Below, one piece after another: positions 29,607-54,990 of a DNA stretch of 56,798 nt. Made by a program: the position numbers and the translations under genes. The notes under the pieces are model-generated. The model was not told the origin of the DNA, made no database searches, and worked only from the letters and a program-made list of their open reading frames with translations. The stretch spans positions 1 to 56,798 of the IMG/VR virus record IMGVR_UViG_3300049845_000287; one strand, written 5' to 3'. The DNA is from a virus. The stretch's first letter is position 1. The number at the start of each line of letters is the position of its first letter.

Positions 29607-29942
29607 CTAGAACGTCTCGCCGTCGACCACGACGAGGTCGCCGTCGTCGGTCTCGACGAACTCGGCACCCGGCACGATCGTGAACTCGTTGCCGAGCCAG
29701 CGTGCGGCGAACTGCTCGCCCGTCTTGAGCTTGCCGCGGTCCGCCGAGCTCATCATGTTGATCGTCGCAACCGACCCGTCCTCGACCAGGAACGACAGCT
29801 CGTACATCGGCCGTCCGTCCTTGGTCTGCGTGTCCTTCCAGCCCAGCAGGATCCCGATGACTTCCTGCGTCCTGGCCTGGATCTCGCCGGTCTGCAAGCC
29901 CAGCTCCTCCGCCATCTTGGCGTAGTCGACTGTCTTCGGCAC
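29607..29942 (-). CDS. Paralogue A of a duplicated early protein
   Basis: This 111-aa protein is closely similar along its whole length to the product of 30343-30675. Shared stretches include ELGLQTGEI, GILLGWKDT, TKDGRPM and the end DGDLVVVDGETF. It is acidic and beta-rich, and looks like a small beta-barrel. Start chosen as GTG 29942 behind AAGGAGGCG, which aligns with the paralogue start; an ATG at 29972 is an alternative. Position at the head of the leftward arm and private promoter and terminator suggest strong early expression. Function unknown. Confidence 0.75.
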   Translation of the reverse strand: MPKTVDYAKMAEELGLQTGEIQARTQEVIGILLGWKDTQTKDGRPMYELSFLVEDGSVATINMMSSADRGKLKTGEQFAARWLGNEFTIVPGAEFVETDDGDLVVVDGETF

Positions 29943-29979
29943 CGTCCTCGCCTCCTTCTGCTCTTCGGGCATGCTCCCA

Positions 29980-30342: not shown

Positions 30343-30675
30343 CTAGAAGGTCTCGCCATCGACGACGACGAGGTCGCCATCGCTGGTCTCGACGAACTCG
30401 GTGCCGGCAACAATCTGGAACTCGTTGCCGACCCAACGCGCGGCGAACGCCTCGCCAGTGCGGAGAGCGCTGCGATCGGCAGACGCCATCATGTTGATGG
30501 TCTGCACGCTGCCATCCGCGACCAGGAAGGACAGCTCGAACATCGGACGACCGTCCTTGGTGGCGGTGTCCTTCCAGCCGAGCAGGATGCCGACGACCTC
30601 TTGGGTGCGAGCGGCAATCTCGCCAGTCTGCAGTCCGAGCTCGGCTGCCAGCTTGGCATAGTCGGGAGCCTTCAT
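30343..30675 (-). CDS. Paralogue B of a duplicated early protein
   Basis: This 110-aa protein is the paralogue of 29607-29942 and starts MKAPDYAKLAAELG behind GAGGAGG. It is the first gene of the leftward arm. A promoter-like motif lies 37 bases upstream and a terminator follows, so it is probably transcribed mainly as a single-gene unit. The conserved core GWKDT.TKDGRPM.ELSFLV and the conserved end VVVDGETF mark a family I do not recognise. Confidence 0.8.
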   Translation of the reverse strand: MKAPDYAKLAAELGLQTGEIAARTQEVVGILLGWKDTATKDGRPMFELSFLVADGSVQTINMMASADRSALRTGEAFAARWVGNEFQIVAGTEFVETSDGDLVVVDGETF

Positions 30676-36817: not shown

Positions 36818-38659
36818 ATGATGATCCATCCCGACAGATGGACTCCCACGGTCAAGAAGCGCGAGACCGCCTTCGGCGACTTCTCGACGCCGAACCTGTT
36901 CGACAAGGCCAAGAACAAGGCCGGCCAGATCGGGCGCAGCGTCAAGTCCAAGGTCGACAAGGTCGCCGAGCGCAAGGTGACGCCTTACATGCAGGGGCCG
37001 GTGAAGTACCGCAAGGGCGACGGGCAGCTCTCGACCAAGGAAGAGAATCTCGCTCTGCCGCATCCGACCCCGGCACACGCCGAGCAGGCGCAGGCCAATG
37101 AGCTCAAGACACGCCCCAAGGTGCGGACGAGCTACGCCGGGGATCCTCGGGCATACGGTGGCGGCCCCGAGACGCCCGCTATCAAGCGCGGACTGGCGCT
37201 CATCACCGGGCCGACCGGCCAGGACATGGGCTCGCTTATCAACCCGAAGCTTCTTGAAGAGGTCAAGGAGCAGGGCTTCCCGCCTCCCGCGGACCCGATG
37301 GACATGGACTTCGAGCCGACTCCGCAGCAAGAGCTCGTTGGACAGGCGTTGAGCGCGCCGATCATATCCACTCTCGAGGTCGGCGGTGACGCGCTCAACC
37401 GTCTCGGAGGAGGCAGGCGCAACGCCGCCGACAACCCGTACCGCGAGGACGACGACCCGGTCTATCGCTACGTCACCCCCGAGAACGAGGAGTTCACCTC
37501 GGCCGACCTGAAGCACTACTTCTCGATGGGCGACGGTGAACCGGTCACCGACGAGTTCCTGAACACGGCCCGCGCCTACAAGCCCGAGTTCTATACCCAC
37601 CACGTCCCCGGCGCGGAGCTTGCCTCGGACGGGAAGACCTGGGTGCGCTACACCCATCTCGCACTCGGAGACGAGAAGAACCCGGTCATCGTCCCTGTCG
37701 AGGACTTCGAGAACCGCACCTACCTCGGCCAGGGGATCAGCCCGGACTACATCGGCCCCGAGCTCGACGAAATCTGGCGCACCCAGATCAACGAGAACAA
37801 GTTCGGCACCGCCGTCCCGCGCGCCCCGCTCCAGGACCGCACGAACAAGTGGGCGTGGGAGCCCGGCTTCGACCCGAAAGACATCCCGTGGGACGAGCAG
37901 ATGGAGTGGTACACCGACCTCTCGCTCGGTTCCTCGCCCTACTATGTGCCCGGCGTGCGCTACGGCGCGGGCGCTGCGCGGGCGCTTCCTTATGCGCTTG
38001 GGTACGAGGGCGAGACCGGTATGGGCCAGGGAGTCGGGCTCGACAACGTGATGGGCATGGGGAACCTGTCCTACAACGACAAGGACCTCAATGTCGGCCA
38101 AGCGGTCGGCGGCACCGTCCAGCCGATGGTGGAAGCGTGGGCCGAGTACGGCCTGTCGGACACCGCGGTCGGCGGTGCCATGAAGCTCGCCAAGGTCATG
38201 CCGAAGGGGTTGCGCACCTCTCTGTCGAAGACCGCCGCTGCCCAGGCGTTCGGCCCGCTCGGCAGGACGCTGCCCGCGCAGGTGGTGGCCGGCGGCCTCA
38301 CAGAAGGGTTCGAGGAGATCCTCGGCGTCATCCCCGGCATGATCGCCCAGGACGGCCTTGGCAACCTCGGCCGTGACCGCAAGTGGAACGACAAGATGGA
38401 GCGGTGGGACTACGGCAAGGGTGACTTCTGGACACGGGCGGGCAACGTCGGCACCGCGATGGGCGAGGCGTTCGCATCAGGTGCGGCCATGGGCCTGCCG
38501 ATGTCGCTCGGTGGCGAGCTCCTCTCGCGCGCCAAGGGAGAAGGCACGACCGGCAAGAAGCCATACGTCGCACCGCCACAGATAGAAGCCGCACCCAGAG
38601 CGGACGGTCAGAGCCAAAGCGACCGTATCGCCGCGTTCCGTGATGAGAGGGCTCGCTGA
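36818..38659 (+). CDS. Putative internal/ejection virion protein
   Basis: This protein is about 613 aa, from the ATG at 36818 (or 36821) behind AGGAG. The basic N-terminal region (SKVDKVAERKV) is followed by a soluble, Pro-rich middle. The C-terminal part has amphipathic Gly/Ala-rich helices (GGLTEGFEEILGVIPGMIAQ, and GEAFASGAAMGLPMSLGGELL region near 545-570), which resemble membrane-active parts of ejection proteins. It overlaps the giant 2365-aa gene by one base. Role inferred from composition and order, as for T7 gp15/gp16. Confidence 0.6.
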   Translation: MMIHPDRWTPTVKKRETAFGDFSTPNLFDKAKNKAGQIGRSVKSKVDKVAERKVTPYMQGPVKYRKGDGQLSTKEENLALPHPTPAHAEQAQANELKTRPKVRTSYAGDPRAYGGGPETPAIKRGLALITGPTGQDMGSLINPKLLEEVKEQGFPPPADPMDMDFEPTPQQELVGQALSAPIISTLEVGGDALNRLGGGRRNAADNPYREDDDPVYRYVTPENEEFTSADLKHYFSMGDGEPVTDEFLNTARAYKPEFYTHHVPGAELASDGKTWVRYTHLALGDEKNPVIVPVEDFENRTYLGQGISPDYIGPELDEIWRTQINENKFGTAVPRAPLQDRTNKWAWEPGFDPKDIPWDEQMEWYTDLSLGSSPYYVPGVRYGAGAARALPYALGYEGETGMGQGVGLDNVMGMGNLSYNDKDLNVGQAVGGTVQPMVEAWAEYGLSDTAVGGAMKLAKVMPKGLRTSLSKTAAAQAFGPLGRTLPAQVVAGGLTEGFEEILGVIPGMIAQDGLGNLGRDRKWNDKMERWDYGKGDFWTRAGNVGTAMGEAFASGAAMGLPMSLGGELLSRAKGEGTTGKKPYVAPPQIEAAPRADGQSQSDRIAAFRDERAR

Positions 38660-41600
38660 TGTCGAAGACCCATGGTGCCCCTACCGTCGGCCCCGGCGGG
38701 ACCAGAGGCGATGCCGAGCAGGGGCAACCGCGCATCAACATCCCGAAGATCGAGGTCGATGTACCGGCTATCGAGACCCCGGTCACCGAGGCACCGGCGG
38801 AGACCGGAGCACCGCAGGGTACACCCCAAGGCGCACCGAAGACCGTGGTGCCGCCTGCGGCCCCGGCGCCTGTCGCTCCTCCTGCGGGCCCTCGCCCCGG
38901 CACGGTCGAAGCGATGCAGGGGATCCCGAAGCCGGTCGAACAACGCGCCGAGCAGACCGTCCTTCCCGGCTTCGAACCACCTCCGGCACCCCTCGAAGGA
39001 CCGCCTCCGGTCAGCGCACCGCCGGCTCAGGGCCAGGCTCCGATCCCCGACCTGATGCAGACGCAGGCGGTCGAAGGCACGGGCGCTCCTGCGGCGCTGG
39101 GCGCAGAGCAGCTCGGGTCGCTCCAGACGCAATCGACCGTCGTGAAAAACGAAGAGAAGCTGCTCGAGCAGGGCGGCCTCGAGGCGACTTCCCCCGTGTC
39201 TCAAGCGCGTGTCCCGACCGTCGAGGAACTGACCGGTGGCGAAGACCTGTTCGCGGCCGAGCAGACCGACGTGATCGCGAATCGTGCGGTCGACATGGAG
39301 GATATGGTCCCGCCGACCAAGGCGACCAGGGCGAACCTGCCTGACCGCTCGTCGAAGGCCGTGCTCAAGGAGCAGCGCGAAGAGGCGACCGCCGGGTACG
39401 GCACCGACGAGACGGGAACGGCCGTCCGCGGCAAGCTCTCCGCAGGGTGGGACGTCAAGATCCACGAGATCTCGGTGTCCGCCGAGCAGCTCGTCGACGC
39501 ATGGCGGCATCAGACCTCCGGTCTGCGCGAGCTCATGACCGAGTACGGCTACGACCAGGAGCAGATGCTCGCCAACCGCGCGTACGCGATCTGGGCCGTG
39601 ACAGACCTGTTCACCAACAACGACATCGAGGCGCTGGCGATGAAGGCGCCGCTCGTCGACGAGGCGTCGGTGCATCGCCGCGTGGTCCGTATCAACAAGG
39701 GACGCGGCATCAAGATCAACCCCATCGTCTTCACGATGTGGAACGCCGACTTCGACGGCGACGACATGATCCTGTCCTTCGGCAGGGAGGCCATCCGTGA
39801 CGCCAAGAGCGCGATGGACTTCCTCATCGGCACGGACGGCGTGGGCAAGATCGACCCCGACTTCTTCGACATGGCTCCCTGGGGCGACGGGACCACCACG
39901 GTCTACGCGCACCTCAGAGAGCTGTTCGAGGGAGACCCCGACAACCCGCTCCTGCTCACCGAGGCCGAGCTCAAGGGGCTGGCGAGCGCCATCGAGCGCG
40001 GGTGGTCAAAGGACTCGAAGGTGCGCGCGGCTGGGTATCGGTCGCTCCTGCGCTGGTCGAGGCAGATCGGCGAGCGGTTCCCGGCCGGCCCCGGTCGTGA
40101 CGAGGCCGTCGCCAGGATACTGACCGACATCTACAACCAGAACAAAGACATCCGCATGCTCACCCTCGGGTTCACGGCGGGCTGGAACTACATCGCCCCC
40201 GCCGACCTCAACGGCGAGTACGGCGAGGAGTCCCAGTTCCCCGAGCTCGAGAGTGATTCGTCGACCCCGGCGAACATGAAGGACATGGAGCGGGCGCTCG
40301 GCACGCCGATCGGCTACGTCCCGGGCAAGAACATCCACTTCCGCGTGACCGCCAGCTTCCTCAAGGCGGCCCGCCAGGTCTCGTACTTCATGGGCATCAA
40401 GCCTCCGGGCGACACCTTCGAGGAGAAGGTCGCGCTCATGGCGAGCGGTATCGAGGCGTTCGACGAGGCCGAGCGCGGTGTCTCCGACTGGGCTCGCAGG
40501 CTCATCATCGAGTCTCTCGGCGGCTTCCCCGCAGACGGGCACCTCGACCCGAAGAAGTTCGACGCCTATATCAAGAAGTTCGTGAGGCGCTACAACTACA
40601 TCGCCTACACGGTGAACTCCGTGACGGCCACCTTCAACCTCGACGACACCATCTCACCGGCCGACCGGCAGAGCTACGTCAAGCCGATCCGCACGGCGAA
40701 CCAGATCGACATGAACCGCGACATCCGCAAGGAGTTCAAGAACGTCTTCGGCTCCTTCACGATGGGCAGGCTGTTCGGCAAGGAGTGCCCCAACGGCTGG
40801 GAGAACATCACGCTCGACGAGTTCGTCCACACCAACAGGGCCGATGCCACATCCCCGGCTGGCGCGAAGCTGCTCGGCCGCCCGTCGACCCCGCTCGACA
40901 CGCCGGCGCATCTCATCGGCCGTCTCGCCGACCTGCGCACCAGCTTCTCCAAGACCTACAACGACGAGTTCACCAAGTCGCTCAAGAAGCAGTTCAGCCC
41001 CGGCGGCGAGCTGCTCTTGCGCAAGGTCGGGATCCTGCGCAAGGAACAGCGGGTGGCCAAGAAGAACTCGGCACAGCTCGACGCCGACATGATCGTGCTG
41101 CTCGATGCCATGCGCTCGTTCTCCGTCGACATCTTCTACTTCCTCGGGTTCAACTCACCGGCCGATCTGGAGCGAAACCCGCTCGGCCAGAAGTTCCTGG
41201 GCGCGACCAACTACAACAAGCTCGGCGGCCTGATGTACGAGGCCGCCACCCGCTACCGGTTCGAGCCGGTCCAGCACGCAGAGAGGGAACTGCGCGCCGC
41301 GAAGAACGGCAAGGAGCGTCGGCACTGGGAGAGCGTCTTGCGCCACGAGCTCGGGGAGATCGCATCGAGCTCGGAGACCTGGGCTGTCATCGTGCATGAC
41401 TACGAGAACGGCGGGGACGTGCTCCCCCGCGTCCTGCTCTCCGACATGACCAAGACGCAGAAGGAAGCCGAGATCGTCAAGCTCGTCCACGAGAGCATCG
41501 TCGGACGACACGGCTACAACAAGGACGAGGTGGCCGCCGGGCTCATGGGCAACCCGAAGGGGCTCTACGCCCGCGACCGCTTCATCTCCGACTTCGGTCA

Positions 41601-44600
41601 CACGAACCTGATGAAGAACGTGAAGGCCGCATCAGACACCATCGACCGGTACGCCAAGCTCAACTGGACGACGATGGTGACCGACATCAAGAACGCCCGC
41701 GCAGGGGCGAAGCCCGACGAGATGAAGCAACTGCTCTCGCGCATCGCACGCGACCCCTCCATCCTCGTGCCTATCGAGAACTGGCAGATCGGCGACGCCG
41801 TCCTCTCGCTGATGGAGAAGTCCTACCCGTCCTCGGAGAAGGCGCAGCAGGAGCCAGAGGTCGCCTACATCTACTCGGCCATCAGCAACCTCATCAACGC
41901 TGGGACGTGGTCGGACCTCGTCGTCGGCGGTGACTTCGCCGTCGGCTCCATCTCCGCGATACGTCTCGCCCAGTCTCCGGGCATCCTGGCCAAGGCGATC
42001 TCCGACCCGAACTTCGCCATCCGCGTCTACGACGGGAAGGGCTCGACCATCCTGTCGCAGTACGCCCTGTTCAAGAAGAACAACCCGTCCGACAAGGAGA
42101 TCTGGGACTGGCTCGAGAACAACCCGCGCATGGCGATGGCGCTGCGCCTCACCACCATGGGCAACAGCGTCAACAAGAAGACCGGGTTCTCCTACACCAA
42201 CGCGACCAAGACGCTCGAGAAGTCGATGTACGAGCTGCGCAAGCCCGAGTCGGTCCCGATGCGCTGCCTCAAGAAGCTCGCCGACCATCCCGGCTTCTAT
42301 GCGATGGTCGCGCTCTCCGTCCCCATGGAGGGCCAGCGCAGGGTGCAGCTGAGGAAGACGGCAGGTGACAACGTCTGGAACGTCATCGAGCTCATCCGCT
42401 CGTTCAACAAGACCGGCATGACCGGTGAGAAGTTCGTCGAGGAGCTCGTCAAGCGCAACGGGCTTCCCGAGGGCATCACGCTCGACGAGGTCAAGAGGCT
42501 CTACAAGGAGGGCCAGAAGGCGACGACCTCGATCGCCGAGGCCGACCAGTACGACGTGCGCGACACGCGCGAGTACCAGATAGGCCAGCTCATGGCGCAC
42601 CTCGCGGCCAACCTCGAGGAGTACGCGGGTATCGTCGACACCATCCCCGGTGGCTCGCTCGGATTCCCTCCGCGCAAGATCGCACTCGACCTGTTCCAGT
42701 TCAGCGACGAGACCACGCTGCGGTCGTACTTCGACGCGGTGCAGGTCATGAGCGGCGCCAAGACGGAGGTCTCGACCTCGGTCAACGCCGCAGAGTCGAA
42801 GAAGAACGCCGCGCTGATGTTCCTCGCCCAGTACGTCCCGAAGGCGTGCGGCGCGCCCGAGCCTGTCCGGATGAAGACCGGGCAGCTCGCAGCCGTGTGG
42901 GAAGACCACATCGGCGACCAGGTGTTCTTCCCGCCGCTCACCGAGGACGGCAGCCCGGAGTGGTACTACATCAACGAGGCGAACCTCGAGTTCATCACCG
43001 AGTACGCGAACGAGAACTACGGCGGCATGGTCATGATCGAGGACACCGCGGCCTGCGTCGACCCGCTCTGCCGGTGTGCCCGGCACGCCAAGGCCGACCC
43101 GTCCACGAACTTCACGGGGCTGCAGACCACCGAGCTCGGTAGGTTCCTCACTGTGGTGCGTACGTTCTCGGGAGAGACGCTCAACCTCAAGATCAAGACG
43201 ACCGGCGACGACGAGACCGACTCCATCACCAAGAACAAGGTCTTCGAGATCCTCGACGTCGGTCTCGAGCGCAGGCTCAACGACGAGTGGGTCAAGCTCG
43301 GCATGAACCCGGCGCCCGAGACGCTGCTGGTCCTGCGCACGATGGTCGCCGAGAAGATGAAGGAGACCTACAAGGAGATGGGCTACGGCGAGGAGCTCAC
43401 GCTCGACGACTTCACCGCGCTCGCTCATTTCATGGTGCGCCCCTACGAGGCCGCCGACGGGCTGATGAAGATCAAGCTGCTCTCCATCGGCCAGCTCAAC
43501 GCCATCTGCCACGAGGCGGCGACCGCGTACGTCAACGAGCTCGGCGACCAGATCACCCACCAGGGTGTGCTCGACAGGATGGTCGAGGCGCTCTCCGACG
43601 ACAGCATCGTCGCCTCCGAGATGGACATCAACGACGTGACCGCGCTGGTCGACGTCGCGCCCAAGATGTTCATGACGCCGAGGCTGAAGTACCAGCGCAT
43701 GTCGAGCACGGGGCGCAACCTCGAGCTCGCCAAGCAGATCGTCAAGGAGAACCCCGACGTCCGTGCCCTGTCGGAGGAGGCGATGGACGACTACGAGTCC
43801 ATCCTGCTCAAGAAGGACAAGCGCGGCCTGGTCGACAGTTGGAAGAACCTCAACCTGTTCGGCGAGAAGTACATGAACAAGCGCTACAAGCTGCGCCTCA
43901 TCGGCATCTTCACCGACAAGGGTTCCATGTCCGAGGAGTTCATCGGCCCCCGCAACTGCTGGCTGCTCAAGCGCGGCGGGGCGTCGGTCGACACGATCGC
44001 CAGGGCGTACCGGCTCGGTATCACGGTGCTCATCGAGAACCCGTCCGAGGTCGACTGGAAAGAGGTCAGTCGCATGACCGGAGGGGAGATCGACGAGAGG
44101 CAACTCGTCGACAAGGGCGGCAACCGCTGGCTCATCCCGATGTTCGACATCCGGCTCAACGGACAGAACCGCTCCGAGAACCACGGCGCGTTCGACGCGG
44201 GCGTGGTCCACGTCCTGCCCGAGAGCGTCTACTTCTACTTCGAGAGCATCCTGAACAAGGACGCGGCGGCTGACGCCGAGTTCATCCCGACCAAGTGGTT
44301 CTCGGACAACATCACGTTCAAGCGCACCGGCACCTACCGGCTGCCCGCCAAAGCGGCGTTCGCCAACCTGATATGGGAGCAGCGTCCCCGTGGCGGCCCC
44401 GGTGTGGTCAACATCGACATCGCCACGCGCCAGCAGATCGAGGACTACTTCGTCGACGGGTACGTCTCCGACACGGCGGACGACGCGCCACCCGAGCTCG
44501 ACAAGAGCATCCCGCTCGATCTGGGCAAGGCCAACACCGAGGAGGGGAGCCGTGAGAACAACCGGTTCCTCGAGGACGTGAAGGTCTACCTGTCCCGCTA

Positions 44601-45756
44601 CCACGAGACCAATGAGAAGGGGATGCTCCCGAGCGCCAAGCCCGACGAGATCATCGGGTGGCTGCGAGCCGAGATCAACGGAGAGGTGAGGTTCCACCCC
44701 ATCCGCATGTTCGAGCTCGGTCACGGTGCGGGAGCGCCGACGGACATGGAGATCGACTGGGAGAAGACCAAGTTCGACCAGGGCACCCAGGAGCTCCTCG
44801 TGGAGTGGAGGAGCGAGGGCTCGATGCTCGGCCGCATGTTCAAGATATTCGAGGGCGGCTTCGCGTCGAACAAGTTCATGGCGCGCACGGACGCCATCGA
44901 CGACATGGAGCTGCAGAACGGGGTCAAGATCGCCGGCTACATCGCACGGCAGTCCACCTCCGGCCGCCGGTTGCTCATGCGCCGCCAGCAGAAGATGTCG
45001 ACGCTGATGTATATGGCGCGGCTCTCCCCGTACGGCTACAACTTCGCGGAGCGAGACGACACGTTCCCGAACGACCCGGAGATCAAGGAAGCCCTGCTCT
45101 CCGGTGAGATGGAGATCGGTGAATGGGACAAGATCCTGAAGGTCGGCGACATCCAGTTCTACCCGGAGGCCGGCGGTGAGCGCAACGCCTTCCTCAACGA
45201 CATGTGCCGCAAGGCGGTGCGCTACAAGGTCAACCCGACCGTCGTGCTCGCCTCGCGTTACGGCGGCGAGGGCGGGACGCCATCGAACCTGTGGTTCAAC
45301 TTCCAGGTCCTGTTCGGGCGCGGGCCCGGCTACCAGCGCAACCTCATGCAGTGGCTCAACTTCATGATGCCGACGCTGTGCCCGCCCGGCCTCGAGGATG
45401 GCAAGAAGCCGAACACGCTGTTCAACGCCAACCTCCAGGTCTACGTCCCTGCCAGCCACACGATGAAGACCTCGGTGCTGGGCAGGAAGCGCGGCGACAC
45501 GGTCACCGTCGGAGAGTGGGTCGACCTGTACGGTGGGTTCCACTTCCTCGACGAGCACTACGACGGGCACTCGAACTCGGGGAGCACGGTCAAGTCCGAC
45601 GGGATCCCCGGACTCAACACGCTCATGGCAGGCGGCAAGGAACTCTCGTCCAAGCAACTCAAGGCATACTTCGGCTGGGGCAACATCGGGCACGCGGGCA
45701 ACTGGTCCGTGGCACCGTCCGGGATGATCTCTCCTGACCAAGAGCCGATCGACTAG
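38659..45756 (+). CDS. Giant virion protein with RNA polymerase beta-prime-like active site
   Basis: This is a 2365-aa protein. Residues 1-190 are disordered and Pro-rich and carry a tag shared with the next protein (GGTRGD 13-18, GQPRIN 22-27). Residues about 257-370 resemble the beta-prime double-psi beta-barrel: RGKLSAG...KIHEISVSAEQL, then KAP...HR, then GIKINPIVFTMWNADFDGDDM, where NADFDGD (362-368) is the Mg-binding signature of multisubunit RNA polymerases. A Cys/His cluster (CVDPLCRCARH) is near 1465. I could not place the beta-subunit lysines, bridge helix or trigger loop by eye. Likely a virion-packaged polymerase; a non-catalytic relic is the alternative. Confidence 0.7.
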   Translation: MSKTHGAPTVGPGGTRGDAEQGQPRINIPKIEVDVPAIETPVTEAPAETGAPQGTPQGAPKTVVPPAAPAPVAPPAGPRPGTVEAMQGIPKPVEQRAEQTVLPGFEPPPAPLEGPPPVSAPPAQGQAPIPDLMQTQAVEGTGAPAALGAEQLGSLQTQSTVVKNEEKLLEQGGLEATSPVSQARVPTVEELTGGEDLFAAEQTDVIANRAVDMEDMVPPTKATRANLPDRSSKAVLKEQREEATAGYGTDETGTAVRGKLSAGWDVKIHEISVSAEQLVDAWRHQTSGLRELMTEYGYDQEQMLANRAYAIWAVTDLFTNNDIEALAMKAPLVDEASVHRRVVRINKGRGIKINPIVFTMWNADFDGDDMILSFGREAIRDAKSAMDFLIGTDGVGKIDPDFFDMAPWGDGTTTVYAHLRELFEGDPDNPLLLTEAELKGLASAIERGWSKDSKVRAAGYRSLLRWSRQIGERFPAGPGRDEAVARILTDIYNQNKDIRMLTLGFTAGWNYIAPADLNGEYGEESQFPELESDSSTPANMKDMERALGTPIGYVPGKNIHFRVTASFLKAARQVSYFMGIKPPGDTFEEKVALMASGIEAFDEAERGVSDWARRLIIESLGGFPADGHLDPKKFDAYIKKFVRRYNYIAYTVNSVTATFNLDDTISPADRQSYVKPIRTANQIDMNRDIRKEFKNVFGSFTMGRLFGKECPNGWENITLDEFVHTNRADATSPAGAKLLGRPSTPLDTPAHLIGRLADLRTSFSKTYNDEFTKSLKKQFSPGGELLLRKVGILRKEQRVAKKNSAQLDADMIVLLDAMRSFSVDIFYFLGFNSPADLERNPLGQKFLGATNYNKLGGLMYEAATRYRFEPVQHAERELRAAKNGKERRHWESVLRHELGEIASSSETWAVIVHDYENGGDVLPRVLLSDMTKTQKEAEIVKLVHESIVGRHGYNKDEVAAGLMGNPKGLYARDRFISDFGHTNLMKNVKAASDTIDRYAKLNWTTMVTDIKNARAGAKPDEMKQLLSRIARDPSILVPIENWQIGDAVLSLMEKSYPSSEKAQQEPEVAYIYSAISNLINAGTWSDLVVGGDFAVGSISAIRLAQSPGILAKAISDPNFAIRVYDGKGSTILSQYALFKKNNPSDKEIWDWLENNPRMAMALRLTTMGNSVNKKTGFSYTNATKTLEKSMYELRKPESVPMRCLKKLADHPGFYAMVALSVPMEGQRRVQLRKTAGDNVWNVIELIRSFNKTGMTGEKFVEELVKRNGLPEGITLDEVKRLYKEGQKATTSIAEADQYDVRDTREYQIGQLMAHLAANLEEYAGIVDTIPGGSLGFPPRKIALDLFQFSDETTLRSYFDAVQVMSGAKTEVSTSVNAAESKKNAALMFLAQYVPKACGAPEPVRMKTGQLAAVWEDHIGDQVFFPPLTEDGSPEWYYINEANLEFITEYANENYGGMVMIEDTAACVDPLCRCARHAKADPSTNFTGLQTTELGRFLTVVRTFSGETLNLKIKTTGDDETDSITKNKVFEILDVGLERRLNDEWVKLGMNPAPETLLVLRTMVAEKMKETYKEMGYGEELTLDDFTALAHFMVRPYEAADGLMKIKLLSIGQLNAICHEAATAYVNELGDQITHQGVLDRMVEALSDDSIVASEMDINDVTALVDVAPKMFMTPRLKYQRMSSTGRNLELAKQIVKENPDVRALSEEAMDDYESILLKKDKRGLVDSWKNLNLFGEKYMNKRYKLRLIGIFTDKGSMSEEFIGPRNCWLLKRGGASVDTIARAYRLGITVLIENPSEVDWKEVSRMTGGEIDERQLVDKGGNRWLIPMFDIRLNGQNRSENHGAFDAGVVHVLPESVYFYFESILNKDAAADAEFIPTKWFSDNITFKRTGTYRLPAKAAFANLIWEQRPRGGPGVVNIDIATRQQIEDYFVDGYVSDTADDAPPELDKSIPLDLGKANTEEGSRENNRFLEDVKVYLSRYHETNEKGMLPSAKPDEIIGWLRAEINGEVRFHPIRMFELGHGAGAPTDMEIDWEKTKFDQGTQELLVEWRSEGSMLGRMFKIFEGGFASNKFMARTDAIDDMELQNGVKIAGYIARQSTSGRRLLMRRQQKMSTLMYMARLSPYGYNFAERDDTFPNDPEIKEALLSGEMEIGEWDKILKVGDIQFYPEAGGERNAFLNDMCRKAVRYKVNPTVVLASRYGGEGGTPSNLWFNFQVLFGRGPGYQRNLMQWLNFMMPTLCPPGLEDGKKPNTLFNANLQVYVPASHTMKTSVLGRKRGDTVTVGEWVDLYGGFHFLDEHYDGHSNSGSTVKSDGIPGLNTLMAGGKELSSKQLKAYFGWGNIGHAGNWSVAPSGMISPDQEPID
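39736..39762 (+). other. NADFDGD catalytic motif codons
   Basis: These codons encode MWNADFDGD. The three Asp residues of D-F-D-G-D chelate the catalytic Mg in bacterial, archaeal and eukaryotic RNA polymerases and in related phage and RNAi polymerases. The preceding INPIVFT matches the usual hydrophobic LHPLVCA strand. Confidence 0.8.
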
Positions 45757-51393: not shown

Positions 51394-53378
51394 TGGATAG
51401 GGAAATGAAGTGGAACATCGAGGCCGACTCCATCAAGGACACCGGCTACACCAAGTGGCTCGGTGACTACGAGGGAGCCAAGGCGCAGATGCGTCTGCGC
51501 ACCCACCACCATGAGCTCTACGGCTACATCGCCAAGAACAAGAGCATCCATGAGGCGAGGGGCAAGCAGGGCAAGGTGTTCTCCGAAGGCTCGTCGCAGT
51601 ACATCCTGCGCAAGGCCCTCGCCGATACCATCCAGCGGGTGCCCGACGGCGAGCTTCAGACGCAGTACGACAAGGGCTCGGTGGAGCACATCCTCACGCA
51701 GTACCTGTTCGAGAACAAGGTACTCAGCTCCGAGATCGAGGGCTGCGACATGCTCTCGAACCTCACTTCGACGTTCAAGTCCGGGTTCACCTACGCCTTC
51801 GCAGCGGTGAGGACCGGCTTCGAGAACGACCTCGACAACGATGCGCGCATCAGCTACACCGTCGAGAACTGGGCCGACATCTTCCCCAACCGGGACTGCA
51901 AGGACATCCGCCGCCCGCAGGTCCTGTGGTTCAGGTCGTACATGAGCAAGGCCGACGTGGAGGCGCTCATCACCGAAGAGGGCACCTTGCGTGACTCGTC
52001 CTACAACGCGGACGCGGTCAAGCATGTCTTGGACAACGACCTGTTCAAGGGCAAGCAGCCCGAGTCCGAGGCGCTCGCCGATCAGATGAAGGGCTCGAGC
52101 TCGCTCCAGTCCATCGAGCTGCTCACCAAGTACGTCCGTGGGGAGAGCGAGTTCGTCACCTATGTCCCCGAGCTCCAGGCCAAGTGGCGCACGGTCAAGA
52201 ACTACGACCCGCGCAAGGGCATCCCGTGGCACTTCCTGGTCCTCGAGGTGGACTCCGACTTCCCGATCGGCATCAGCCAGTTCGAGTACCTGCTCGCCGA
52301 TCAGCAGTTCCAAGACCTCTTCCAGACCTCGGCGTTCAAGAACCTGCTGCTCGCCATGGAGCCGCCCATCATGGTCGGTGGCTGGGAGACCAACCCGATG
52401 GCGTACCGCTTCGAGCCTCGCAAGATCTGGAGCCTGGGCAACAACCCGAATCAGACCAAGGTCGAGCCGGTCAAGATCGGCAACGAGGTGCTGACAGGGT
52501 TCCTGCCCACACGCGAAGGTGTGGCCGCCGGCATGCTGCGCCAGCTCAACGTGCTGGACGGCACGATCGCGCGCGACTCGGGCGTCCCCGGCTTCTCCGC
52601 CACTCCACAGGGGGTCGAAGCGCAGACCACGAGCAAGCAGATCAGCATCAACCAGTACCAGAAGCGCGTCGAATACTTCTTCTCCGAGTGGGCGAACGCG
52701 GCGTTGCGCACCTACATCAACTCGATGACCGGCGTCCACGAGCTCACCGTCGATGAAGCGACCCGTCGCCGCCTGTTCGACCTCGGTGACGAGGGCATGG
52801 AGCTGATCGTGGGCGACAAGGTCAAGGTGGACTTCGACAAGCTCTCGACCGACATGCTCCAGTTCAAGGTGCGCACCGGCTCGCTCGTGGAGAAGAAGGA
52901 GGAGCAGGAGCGCAAGGCCCTCCAGGAGACCGTGCAGCCGTTCGTGCAGAACCTCACCGGCTGGTCCGAGGAGAACAAGAAAGTCATCGAGAACGAGGTC
53001 CTGCTCCCCGCGGCCAAGCGGATGTTGGAGCTTTCCGATACCGACATCGGCCAGTCGACCGCCGAGAGCATCGGCAGCCACATGGCGAAGATGATGCTCG
53101 CGGAGATGCAAGGACAGATCGACGGGCTGGCAGCCCAGAACGAGATGCAGGGTGCGCAGATAGATGCCACCCAAAAGGCGCTGCCGCCTGAGTCTCAGGC
53201 ACAACTGGCGCAGGAGCTCCCGCCAGTGTCCATGGAGGAAGGGGCTCCTGCCCCCGAGATTCCAACACCGGGTCTGGGTGCGGGAGGCGCTTCGCCGAGT
53301 AGACCTCCCGTACCCGAGCCCGGCCCTGTTCCCGCAGGTCAGGAAGTGATTTCACCCGCCGAACTTCTTGAGCTCTGA
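51393..53378 (+). CDS. Portal protein
   Basis: This 661-aa protein lies directly before the capsid gene and follows portal layout. Helical wings (1-120) lead to a beta-rich stem region with IFPNRDCKDIRRPQVLWFRS (about 168-187). Long helices follow (EYLLADQQFQDLFQTSAFKNLLLA; VPGFSATPQGVEAQTTSKQI), then a coiled coil (about 485-600) and a disordered Pro-rich tail. Size fits podovirus portals. It forms the dodecameric DNA entry ring to which terminase docks. Confidence 0.8.
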   Translation: MDREMKWNIEADSIKDTGYTKWLGDYEGAKAQMRLRTHHHELYGYIAKNKSIHEARGKQGKVFSEGSSQYILRKALADTIQRVPDGELQTQYDKGSVEHILTQYLFENKVLSSEIEGCDMLSNLTSTFKSGFTYAFAAVRTGFENDLDNDARISYTVENWADIFPNRDCKDIRRPQVLWFRSYMSKADVEALITEEGTLRDSSYNADAVKHVLDNDLFKGKQPESEALADQMKGSSSLQSIELLTKYVRGESEFVTYVPELQAKWRTVKNYDPRKGIPWHFLVLEVDSDFPIGISQFEYLLADQQFQDLFQTSAFKNLLLAMEPPIMVGGWETNPMAYRFEPRKIWSLGNNPNQTKVEPVKIGNEVLTGFLPTREGVAAGMLRQLNVLDGTIARDSGVPGFSATPQGVEAQTTSKQISINQYQKRVEYFFSEWANAALRTYINSMTGVHELTVDEATRRRLFDLGDEGMELIVGDKVKVDFDKLSTDMLQFKVRTGSLVEKKEEQERKALQETVQPFVQNLTGWSEENKKVIENEVLLPAAKRMLELSDTDIGQSTAESIGSHMAKMMLAEMQGQIDGLAAQNEMQGAQIDATQKALPPESQAQLAQELPPVSMEEGAPAPEIPTPGLGAGGASPSRPPVPEPGPVPAGQEVISPAELLEL

Positions 53379-53454: not shown

Positions 53455-54990
53455 ATGGCCCAGCCCATTTCGCCGGAGATCTGGAACAAGGCGGCACTCA
53501 CGGACAACCGCCTGCTTCCGGGCCGATATTCAGTCGGCATCTTCACAGGCAAAGGCGTGAACATCGCCAACAACCAGGAGGCGTACGCCTACGACGACAT
53601 CCTGGTGTCCGACCGGATCTTCGACTACGACGACCGCCGGCTCAACAGCCTCGAGCCCCGCACCTACGCGGACGGCGGCCAGGTCAACGACGGCTGGGGC
53701 GCGAGCGCCTACGGTCCGTTCCAGACGGTCCGCTTCACTCGCCGCGTGTTCACCAGTGGCCAGCACAAGTCGATCGCCTGGCGCATCTTCGACGAGAAGC
53801 AGTACGGCGGCGCCATCGGCAGCTTCGGTGACGCGGCCACTTCGTCCGCCTACACCGGCGGCGAGGCGTACATGTCGACCGCGGCCACCATCCAGAAGGC
53901 CAAGGCCATCTGGGACAAGGAGATCCTCGGCCCGCACATCGACAAGTACAACTTCTTCGCGATCGCCAACGGCCACATCTCGGGCCGCTTCGTCCAGACC
54001 AACGCCGTGGCAGGCGCCATGTTCGAGGGCGACCCGGCACTCGGCACCTGGATCGCGAGCCCCGGTCCCTACGAGGGACTCAGCTACCCGCCCGAGTTCG
54101 CCCCGATCAAGGCGATCGAGTGGGACAGCTCCAACGTGCGTCCGCTGCTCAACGCCATCGACGTGGCATGGACGAACCTGTTCATCCCGGAGGACCAGCG
54201 TGTCATCCTGCTCGACAAGGCGTACAAGGACGACCTGCTCTCCAACCTGATCGGCATCCCCGGTTCGCTGCCCGGCAGCGACAGCGCGTACGCCGACCTC
54301 AAGGAAGGCCGCTTCGAGCGGTTCTACGGGTGGGACTTCGACTTCTCGATCCCGTCGCAGTATTTCCCCTACGTCTACCTGGACGAGAACAACAACGTCG
54401 TCCACACCAGCGACGGCAACGCGGCCTACGACGCGGTCATCAACTCGATCGCCGCTTCAGAGGGCACTCTGAAGCTCACGACCGAGCTGGCTGAGTCGCA
54501 GCGCATGCGCGCCACGAACTACATCGGCACCTACTGGGATGCCGCCAACAACACCTGGGTCACCCAGGTCACCAACTACCCGGGCAACGGCAATCCCGCC
54601 AACGTCGGTGCCAACTGGGACACCGAGGGCGCGTCCGTGGACTCCAGCCCCGACTTCTCCGTCGGTCCGGTGGCCACCACGCACCTCAACACCTTCCCGT
54701 TCCAGGGCTATCCCGGCCAGGGCCTCGAGTCCCCGACCGGCCCGCAGGGCGCGATCACCAAGGTCCGCGTCATGGGCATGGCGGTCTACCGCCCGGCCGC
54801 ACAGCTCGGCCAGGAGTACGGAGCGATGGAGACGGACCGCGGCAAGACGCGCGGCAAGTTCACCGAGCTCGTCTTCGACGTCAAGCACGACGCGTGGGTC
54901 ATCCCGCAGTATGCTCACGGCATCCTGCTCCTGATCGACCGCGTGGCCGACGTCGGAGTCCCGACCGTCAAGGTCGAGATCATCTCCTAG
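53455..54990 (+). CDS. Major capsid protein
   Basis: This 511-aa protein follows the portal and is followed by a strong terminator. Composition is typical: acidic, Gly/Ala/Tyr-rich, with an N-terminal arm, an extended beta section (DILVSDRIFDYDDRRL), a long helix (residues about 138-152) and a C-terminal domain ending in hydrophobic strands. It fits an HK97-fold shell protein. The middle (ANNTWVTQVTNYPGNGNPANVG) may be a surface insertion. Leader has its own -10 and GGAGAG plus ACGGAG sites. Confidence 0.8.
   Translation: MAQPISPEIWNKAALTDNRLLPGRYSVGIFTGKGVNIANNQEAYAYDDILVSDRIFDYDDRRLNSLEPRTYADGGQVNDGWGASAYGPFQTVRFTRRVFTSGQHKSIAWRIFDEKQYGGAIGSFGDAATSSAYTGGEAYMSTAATIQKAKAIWDKEILGPHIDKYNFFAIANGHISGRFVQTNAVAGAMFEGDPALGTWIASPGPYEGLSYPPEFAPIKAIEWDSSNVRPLLNAIDVAWTNLFIPEDQRVILLDKAYKDDLLSNLIGIPGSLPGSDSAYADLKEGRFERFYGWDFDFSIPSQYFPYVYLDENNNVVHTSDGNAAYDAVINSIAASEGTLKLTTELAESQRMRATNYIGTYWDAANNTWVTQVTNYPGNGNPANVGANWDTEGASVDSSPDFSVGPVATTHLNTFPFQGYPGQGLESPTGPQGAITKVRVMGMAVYRPAAQLGQEYGAMETDRGKTRGKFTELVFDVKHDAWVIPQYAHGILLLIDRVADVGVPTVKVEIIS

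Follow-up and report, generated by a model that had tools for sequence, protein, structure and literature searches.

Gene 47 of an uncultured tailed phage probably encodes a single-chain RNA polymerase with two double-psi barrels that is packaged in the virion, injected, and used to transcribe the first phage genes (we give this reading a probability of roughly 78%). In the proposed mechanism, a beta-prime-type barrel near the N terminus carries the three aspartates of a DFDGD motif and a beta-type barrel, about 1700 residues later, carries two lysines; the two barrels would assemble into one active site that catalyzes DNA-dependent RNA synthesis. The protein would be packaged with the products of genes 46 and 48, would enter the cell with the DNA, and would then transcribe the first phage genes without the host's enzyme.

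The window, which is the whole stretch of DNA that we analyzed, corresponds to a complete IMG/VR record; it has 56,798 bases and a G+C content of 63.6%. Genes on its left and right are mostly on the plus strand, and their functions are in the virion, tail, and lysis. Between these flanks lies a minus-strand block (about 12.9-30.7 kb) that includes terminase, ParB-like, and AAA genes. Two nearby genes on the minus strand (29607-29972 and 30343-30675) encode similar short proteins, YAKMAEELGLQTGEIQARTQEVIG and YAKLAAELGLQTGEIAARTQEVVG, which looks like a duplication. An examination of repeats and sigma-70-like sites near the divergent intergenic region gave nothing usable on promoters. Gene numbers (46 to 50) are from a simple gene caller made for this analysis. 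On the plus strand, genes 46, 47, and 48 are followed by the portal and capsid genes (Table 1). Gene 48 was considered as the carrier of a beta half and was set aside, as it had no RNA polymerase match in Pfam.

Table 1. Features of the gene 47 region (positions are those of the window; residues are those of the gene 47 protein)
Feature	Position	Strand	Evidence
Gene 46, 612 aa	36821..38659	+	Gene call; relative in L060; adjoins gene 47 upstream
Gene 47, candidate single-chain two-barrel virion RNA polymerase	38659..45756	+	Intact ORF, coding composition, Pfam, homologues
Poorly conserved Pro/Ala-rich N-terminal tail, residues 1-235	38659..39363	+	Family alignment without conserved columns
Beta-prime-type double-psi barrel (DPBB-A), residues 255-375	39421..39783	+	hhalign, AF2, Foldseek
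NADFDGD, residues 362-368; presumed Mg-binding Asp triad D364/D366/D368	39742..39762	+	Family conservation
Bridge-helix candidate, residues 1351-1373, contains YFDAVQVMSGAKT up to 1369	42709..42777	+	Predicted helix, conserved GAKT
Beta-type double-psi barrel region (DPBB-B), residues 1826-2130	44134..45048	+	Foldseek, hhalign
K2062 to K2072, two candidate beta-side catalytic lysines	44842..44874	+	Invariant in family; aligned with beta lysines
Gene 48, 1875 aa	45766..51393	+	Adjoins gene 47 downstream; fused with polymerase gene in G009/L050
Gene 49, portal protein	51405..53378	+	Position; homology to L060 (64%); EK phages annotate portal there
Gene 50, major capsid protein	53455..54990	+	About 75% identical in relatives; equivalent annotated so in MissAmericana and others

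Direct searches with gene 47 in viral contigs and phage records found no relative, because the gene diverges very fast. Relatives were instead reached via the capsid gene, which led to 14 loci; nine of their records carry homologues of gene 47. A tenth homologue, in L060, was found by profile, for a total of 10 other virus records. When cellular genomes were searched with the capsid profile, no prophage was found. In one relative (G009; L050 3516-17504, minus strand), the equivalents of genes 47 and 48 form one ORF of 4662 aa, which is intermediate between the split arrangement of the window and a fully fused one. A tail similar to residues 1-235 of gene 47 is also present on gene 48.

Some of the homologues (L045, L046/L047, L049, and L042, from genomes G007, G012, G006, and G002, respectively) match NADAR (PF08719) or NADAR-like domains. 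Long inserts occur at varied places in the homologues, after residues 785, 1223, and 2359 of the window's protein. It is as if the NADAR domain were mobile among the homologues; inserts were assigned to Pfam matches by eye. The ends of L046 and L047 overlap by about 99 bases, so the G012 record probably represents a complete genome of about 53 kb, either circular or circularly permuted.

Evidence for the beta-prime half came from motifs, profiles, and conservation. An earlier note on this DNA had reported NADFDGD in one giant chain, with motifs upstream in the order of the beta-prime double-psi barrel. Both the motif's position and the ORF are exact: gene 47 begins with ATG, encodes 2365 aa (262 kDa), and has its stop codon within 38659-45756. 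The coordinates of the upstream motifs (RGKLSAG at 257-263, KIHEISVSAEQL at 267-278, and KAPLVDEASVHRR at 329-341) confirm their order. Pfam's RNA_pol_Rpb1_2 matches residues 313-374 of gene 47 at 27.8 bits, above the curated cutoff of 25.3, and it matches 10 of the 11 aligned family sequences or fragments. A search of the family profile against the PDB found E. coli beta-prime (E = 1.1e-8). Similarly, hhalign aligned a profile of residues 236-420 with a beta-prime alignment (E = 1.9e-12), and nothing was obtained from the controls, which were beta and reversed or column-shuffled alignments. General Pfam and PHROGs searches placed no palm-polymerase family (N4-type or T7-like) among the matches of gene 47. 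D-x-D-G-D is kept, near residue 260-425, in every family member that we examined and that covers the site, and D364, D366, G367, and D368 are invariant columns. As for other catalytic elements, the candidate bridge helix corresponds to helix 1116-1138 of the N-half model, and its profile comparison with beta-prime is below significance; RTFSGETLNLKIK (1501-1513) was weighed as a candidate trigger loop.

The earlier note had failed to find the lysines of the beta side, but these are very probably K2062 and K2072, near the C terminus. Both by eye and by profile, they align with the lysines of GDK..GRHGNKG in beta. Their context is K...NK, as against GDK..GRHGNKG, and is followed by G, with SR at the same distance as in NGTPVDIVLNPLGVPSR. 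The two lysines are 10 residues apart in gene 47, 9 apart in the giant proteins of cluster EK phages (described below), and 8 apart in cellular beta. Upstream of the lysines is PDEIIGW (PGDIVGW in the family consensus), which may be compared with GDILVGK, a motif of cellular beta. When the beta region was compared with beta by hhalign, the alignment was in the catalytic register (P = 0.011). Depending on how the region was cut, P was about 0.005-0.018, and there was no match to beta-prime. The score of 29.0 exceeds the maximum from 40 shuffles (25.5) by a narrow margin. Pfam and family searches gave no direct sequence-family match for the beta half, and the window's family was missed by a HMMER model of the lysine region of beta, so the claim for this half rests on profile-profile comparison, invariance, and fold.

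We used AF2 to predict the structures of two halves of the protein, residues 236-1435 and 1166-2365, from 11-sequence alignments. The halves were modeled separately and with modest confidence (mean pLDDT of 62.7 for the N-half and 60.0 for the C-half; pTM of 0.39 and 0.38). Within DPBB-A, pLDDT was mostly above 80, and lower around the DFDGD loop. Each half was then compared with the PDB by a separate Foldseek search that was unguided, that is, no target was specified. The N-half had 104 matches with E <= 0.001, and the top 50 were all largest-subunit chains of RNA polymerase (beta-prime and one archaeal equivalent). For the C-half, the top 50 were all beta or RPB2 chains (best E = 6e-4, probability 1.00). 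The two unguided searches lead to a different subunit for each half. TM-scores were low, since each 1200-residue half aligns only in part. Rpb1_2, hhalign, and Foldseek support a beta-prime double-psi barrel around residue 364. The earlier note had staked its claim on there being such a barrel in a predicted structure and on close homologues keeping the Asp triad; the N-half model matches beta-prime chains, and the triad is invariant.

The nearest sequenced phages are podophage-like phages of Microbacterium and Arthrobacter. Cluster EK (Eekayvirinae, including Akoni and TinyTimothy), Burro, and MissAmericana have a giant gene, longer than 4400 codons, and its role has been called unclear (PMC7302621, PMC8281081). 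The genomes of the EK, Burro, and MissAmericana phages are about 54 kb, and their capsid and TerL proteins are about 23% and 28% identical to those of the window phage. Their giant gene lies directly before portal and capsid, as the gene 47 block does in the window. The giants apparently combine genes 46, 47, and 48 in one chain of about 4400-4800 aa, whereas the window phage has three genes, none of which encodes a chain that exceeds 4400 residues. Gene 46 resembles the beginning of the EK giants only in a visual comparison, in which GFEE is followed by a stretch rich in Gly, Ala, and Met. The gene 48 profile has a weak C-terminal match to Akoni (E = 0.002), and an equivalent of gene 48 may also be fused to the polymerase in the EK giants.

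D.DGD occurs near residue 800-871 in all nine giants that we examined. It also occurs in nearly all of the further giants that we found, some of which are records of the same cultured phages; the exceptions are L124, where no copy is clear, and L107, which is truncated. The giants have a second invariant pair, K2899 and K2908 in MissAmericana, which in many members is in the context G-D-K...G-M-K. Along the EK and Burro chains, the order is D.DGD, then GD(I/L), then K-(9)-K, with the lysines about 2100 residues after D.DGD. The first of the two EK regions matches beta-prime (P = 0.0015) and the second matches beta (P = 1.5e-4), with scores clearly above shuffled controls, and the swapped pairing gives no match. 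The whole EK profile is collinear with the window's family: the score was 41.2, compared with at most 22.5 in ten shuffles, though the nominal P was only 0.018. In a separate comparison of EK and window-family profiles (A5, A1), only the D.DGD region matched (P = 0.032), and Pfam found nothing on two EK-type giants. The best viral fold match of the C-half was a fragment of the Burro giant (1199 columns, E = 1.7e-3, probability only 0.54). Given their position, motif order, and fold, together with profile scores that are weak, the EK, Burro, and MissAmericana giants seem to represent the gene 47 enzyme in fusion with its neighbors. The MissAmericana giant (L101 3977-17281) is annotated as a tape measure protein, though its relatives are podophages; this annotation is probably wrong or incomplete.

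Packaging of the gene 47 protein in the virion is suggested indirectly, by the gene's position before portal and capsid and by a band in Burro. Virions of Burro contain a protein of about 250 kDa, which was assigned to gp27, either whole or after processing (PMC7302621). With gene 47 at 262 kDa, the band is about the size of the polymerase module, a match that is suggestive but falls short of proof. The placement before portal and capsid and the large neighbors also recall phi14:2, in which gp65 and gp67, annotated as virion or polymerase associated, flank the polymerase gp66. A two-barrel polymerase could instead be made after infection and never packaged, as is P23-45 gp64, which is made only inside the cell (PMC10770324). 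We consider this unlikely, because gene 47 is among the structural genes, just ahead of portal and capsid and beside two other large proteins, and because its Burro relative was reported to be virion associated (PMC7302621).

Even less likely is that the polymerase fold of gene 47 has lost catalysis and survives as a virion or ejection protein of a tape-measure-like kind. The annotation of the MissAmericana homologue and the very fast divergence would fit such a protein: gene 47 is just 23% identical to its homologue in L060, while the primase, portal, and capsid proteins are 58%, 64%, and 68% identical. However, the three aspartates and two lysines are among the very few residues that hardly change in either family, which is not expected of a dead site. 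A third reading, that only the beta-prime half is real and a different chain (gene 48, for example) supplies the beta barrel, with the likeness of the C-half being incidental, is very unlikely. In its favor, the window's family alone gives a weak sequence signal for the beta half (P = 0.005-0.018 by region), and confidence in the fold model of this half is modest. Against it, every one of the 50 best PDB matches of the C-half is a beta or RPB2 chain, and an independent match to beta comes from the EK family (P = 1.5e-4), where the matching region has the corresponding position and many members read G-D-K...K.

As the N-half matches beta-prime and the C-half matches beta, the order in gene 47 is beta-prime and then beta (D364, then K2062, in one chain). 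The earlier note had suspected that the domain order might be new and unlike that of crAss gp66, and finding the beta half downstream of the beta-prime half bears this out. Among the open-access papers searched, none turned up that identifies these genes as polymerases or reports a reversed order of the barrels. We think it likely that gene 47 and the EK and Burro giants, which would thereby be explained, form a distinct lineage of virion RNA polymerases with the order beta-prime then beta, found in actinobacterial podophages and metagenomic phages, and that it arose either when a single-chain ancestor was circularly permuted or through an independent fusion. One of the largest genes of actinobacteriophages, and one of the least understood, would then have a function that can be tested; cultured phages and hosts exist for it. 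The reversed order also bears on the origin of single-chain polymerases, because all of the others that have been compared (in PMC10770324 and here) share one order.

Among known systems, phi14:2 gp66 (from a crAss-like phage) and QDE-1 are single-chain two-barrel polymerases, as gene 47 is proposed to be, and gp66 is virion associated and flanked by giant virion proteins (PMC10770324). In the single-chain enzymes compared, however, the connector runs from DPBB-B to DPBB-A (PMC10770324): in QDE-1, crAss gp66, and P23-45, the beta barrel is upstream of the beta-prime barrel, and gene 47 is the reverse. Beta-beta-prime fusions also have the opposite order to gene 47. A search of gene 47 against a phage collection that includes phi14:2 gave no sequence match. 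With its opposite barrel order, gene 47 is not a crAss gp66-type enzyme. Thermus phage P23-45 has a DFDGD two-barrel polymerase, gp96, within a giant virion protein, and it was proposed to transcribe the entering DNA (PMC10770324), but gp96 has beta first, is part of a long-tail tape measure, and is from a different group of phages. Viral contigs of another type (L065, L066, and L069-L079) encode single chains that hold the two barrels and carry GDK..GNKG and NADFDGD; GDK is near residue 780 and NADFDGD near 1400, again opposite to gene 47. More broadly, many viral contigs (L065-L091) encode single-chain RNA polymerases of roughly 2000-2400 aa, which form a separate and apparently widespread group. 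Finally, jumbo phages of the phiKZ/AR9 type have two-barrel enzymes, one copy of which is packaged in the virion (PMC7824862); their equivalents of beta and beta-prime are split over several polypeptides, whereas gene 47 holds both. Gene 47 would be a further way to carry a two-barrel polymerase in the virion, beside the enzymes of crAss-like phages, P23-45, and jumbo phages.
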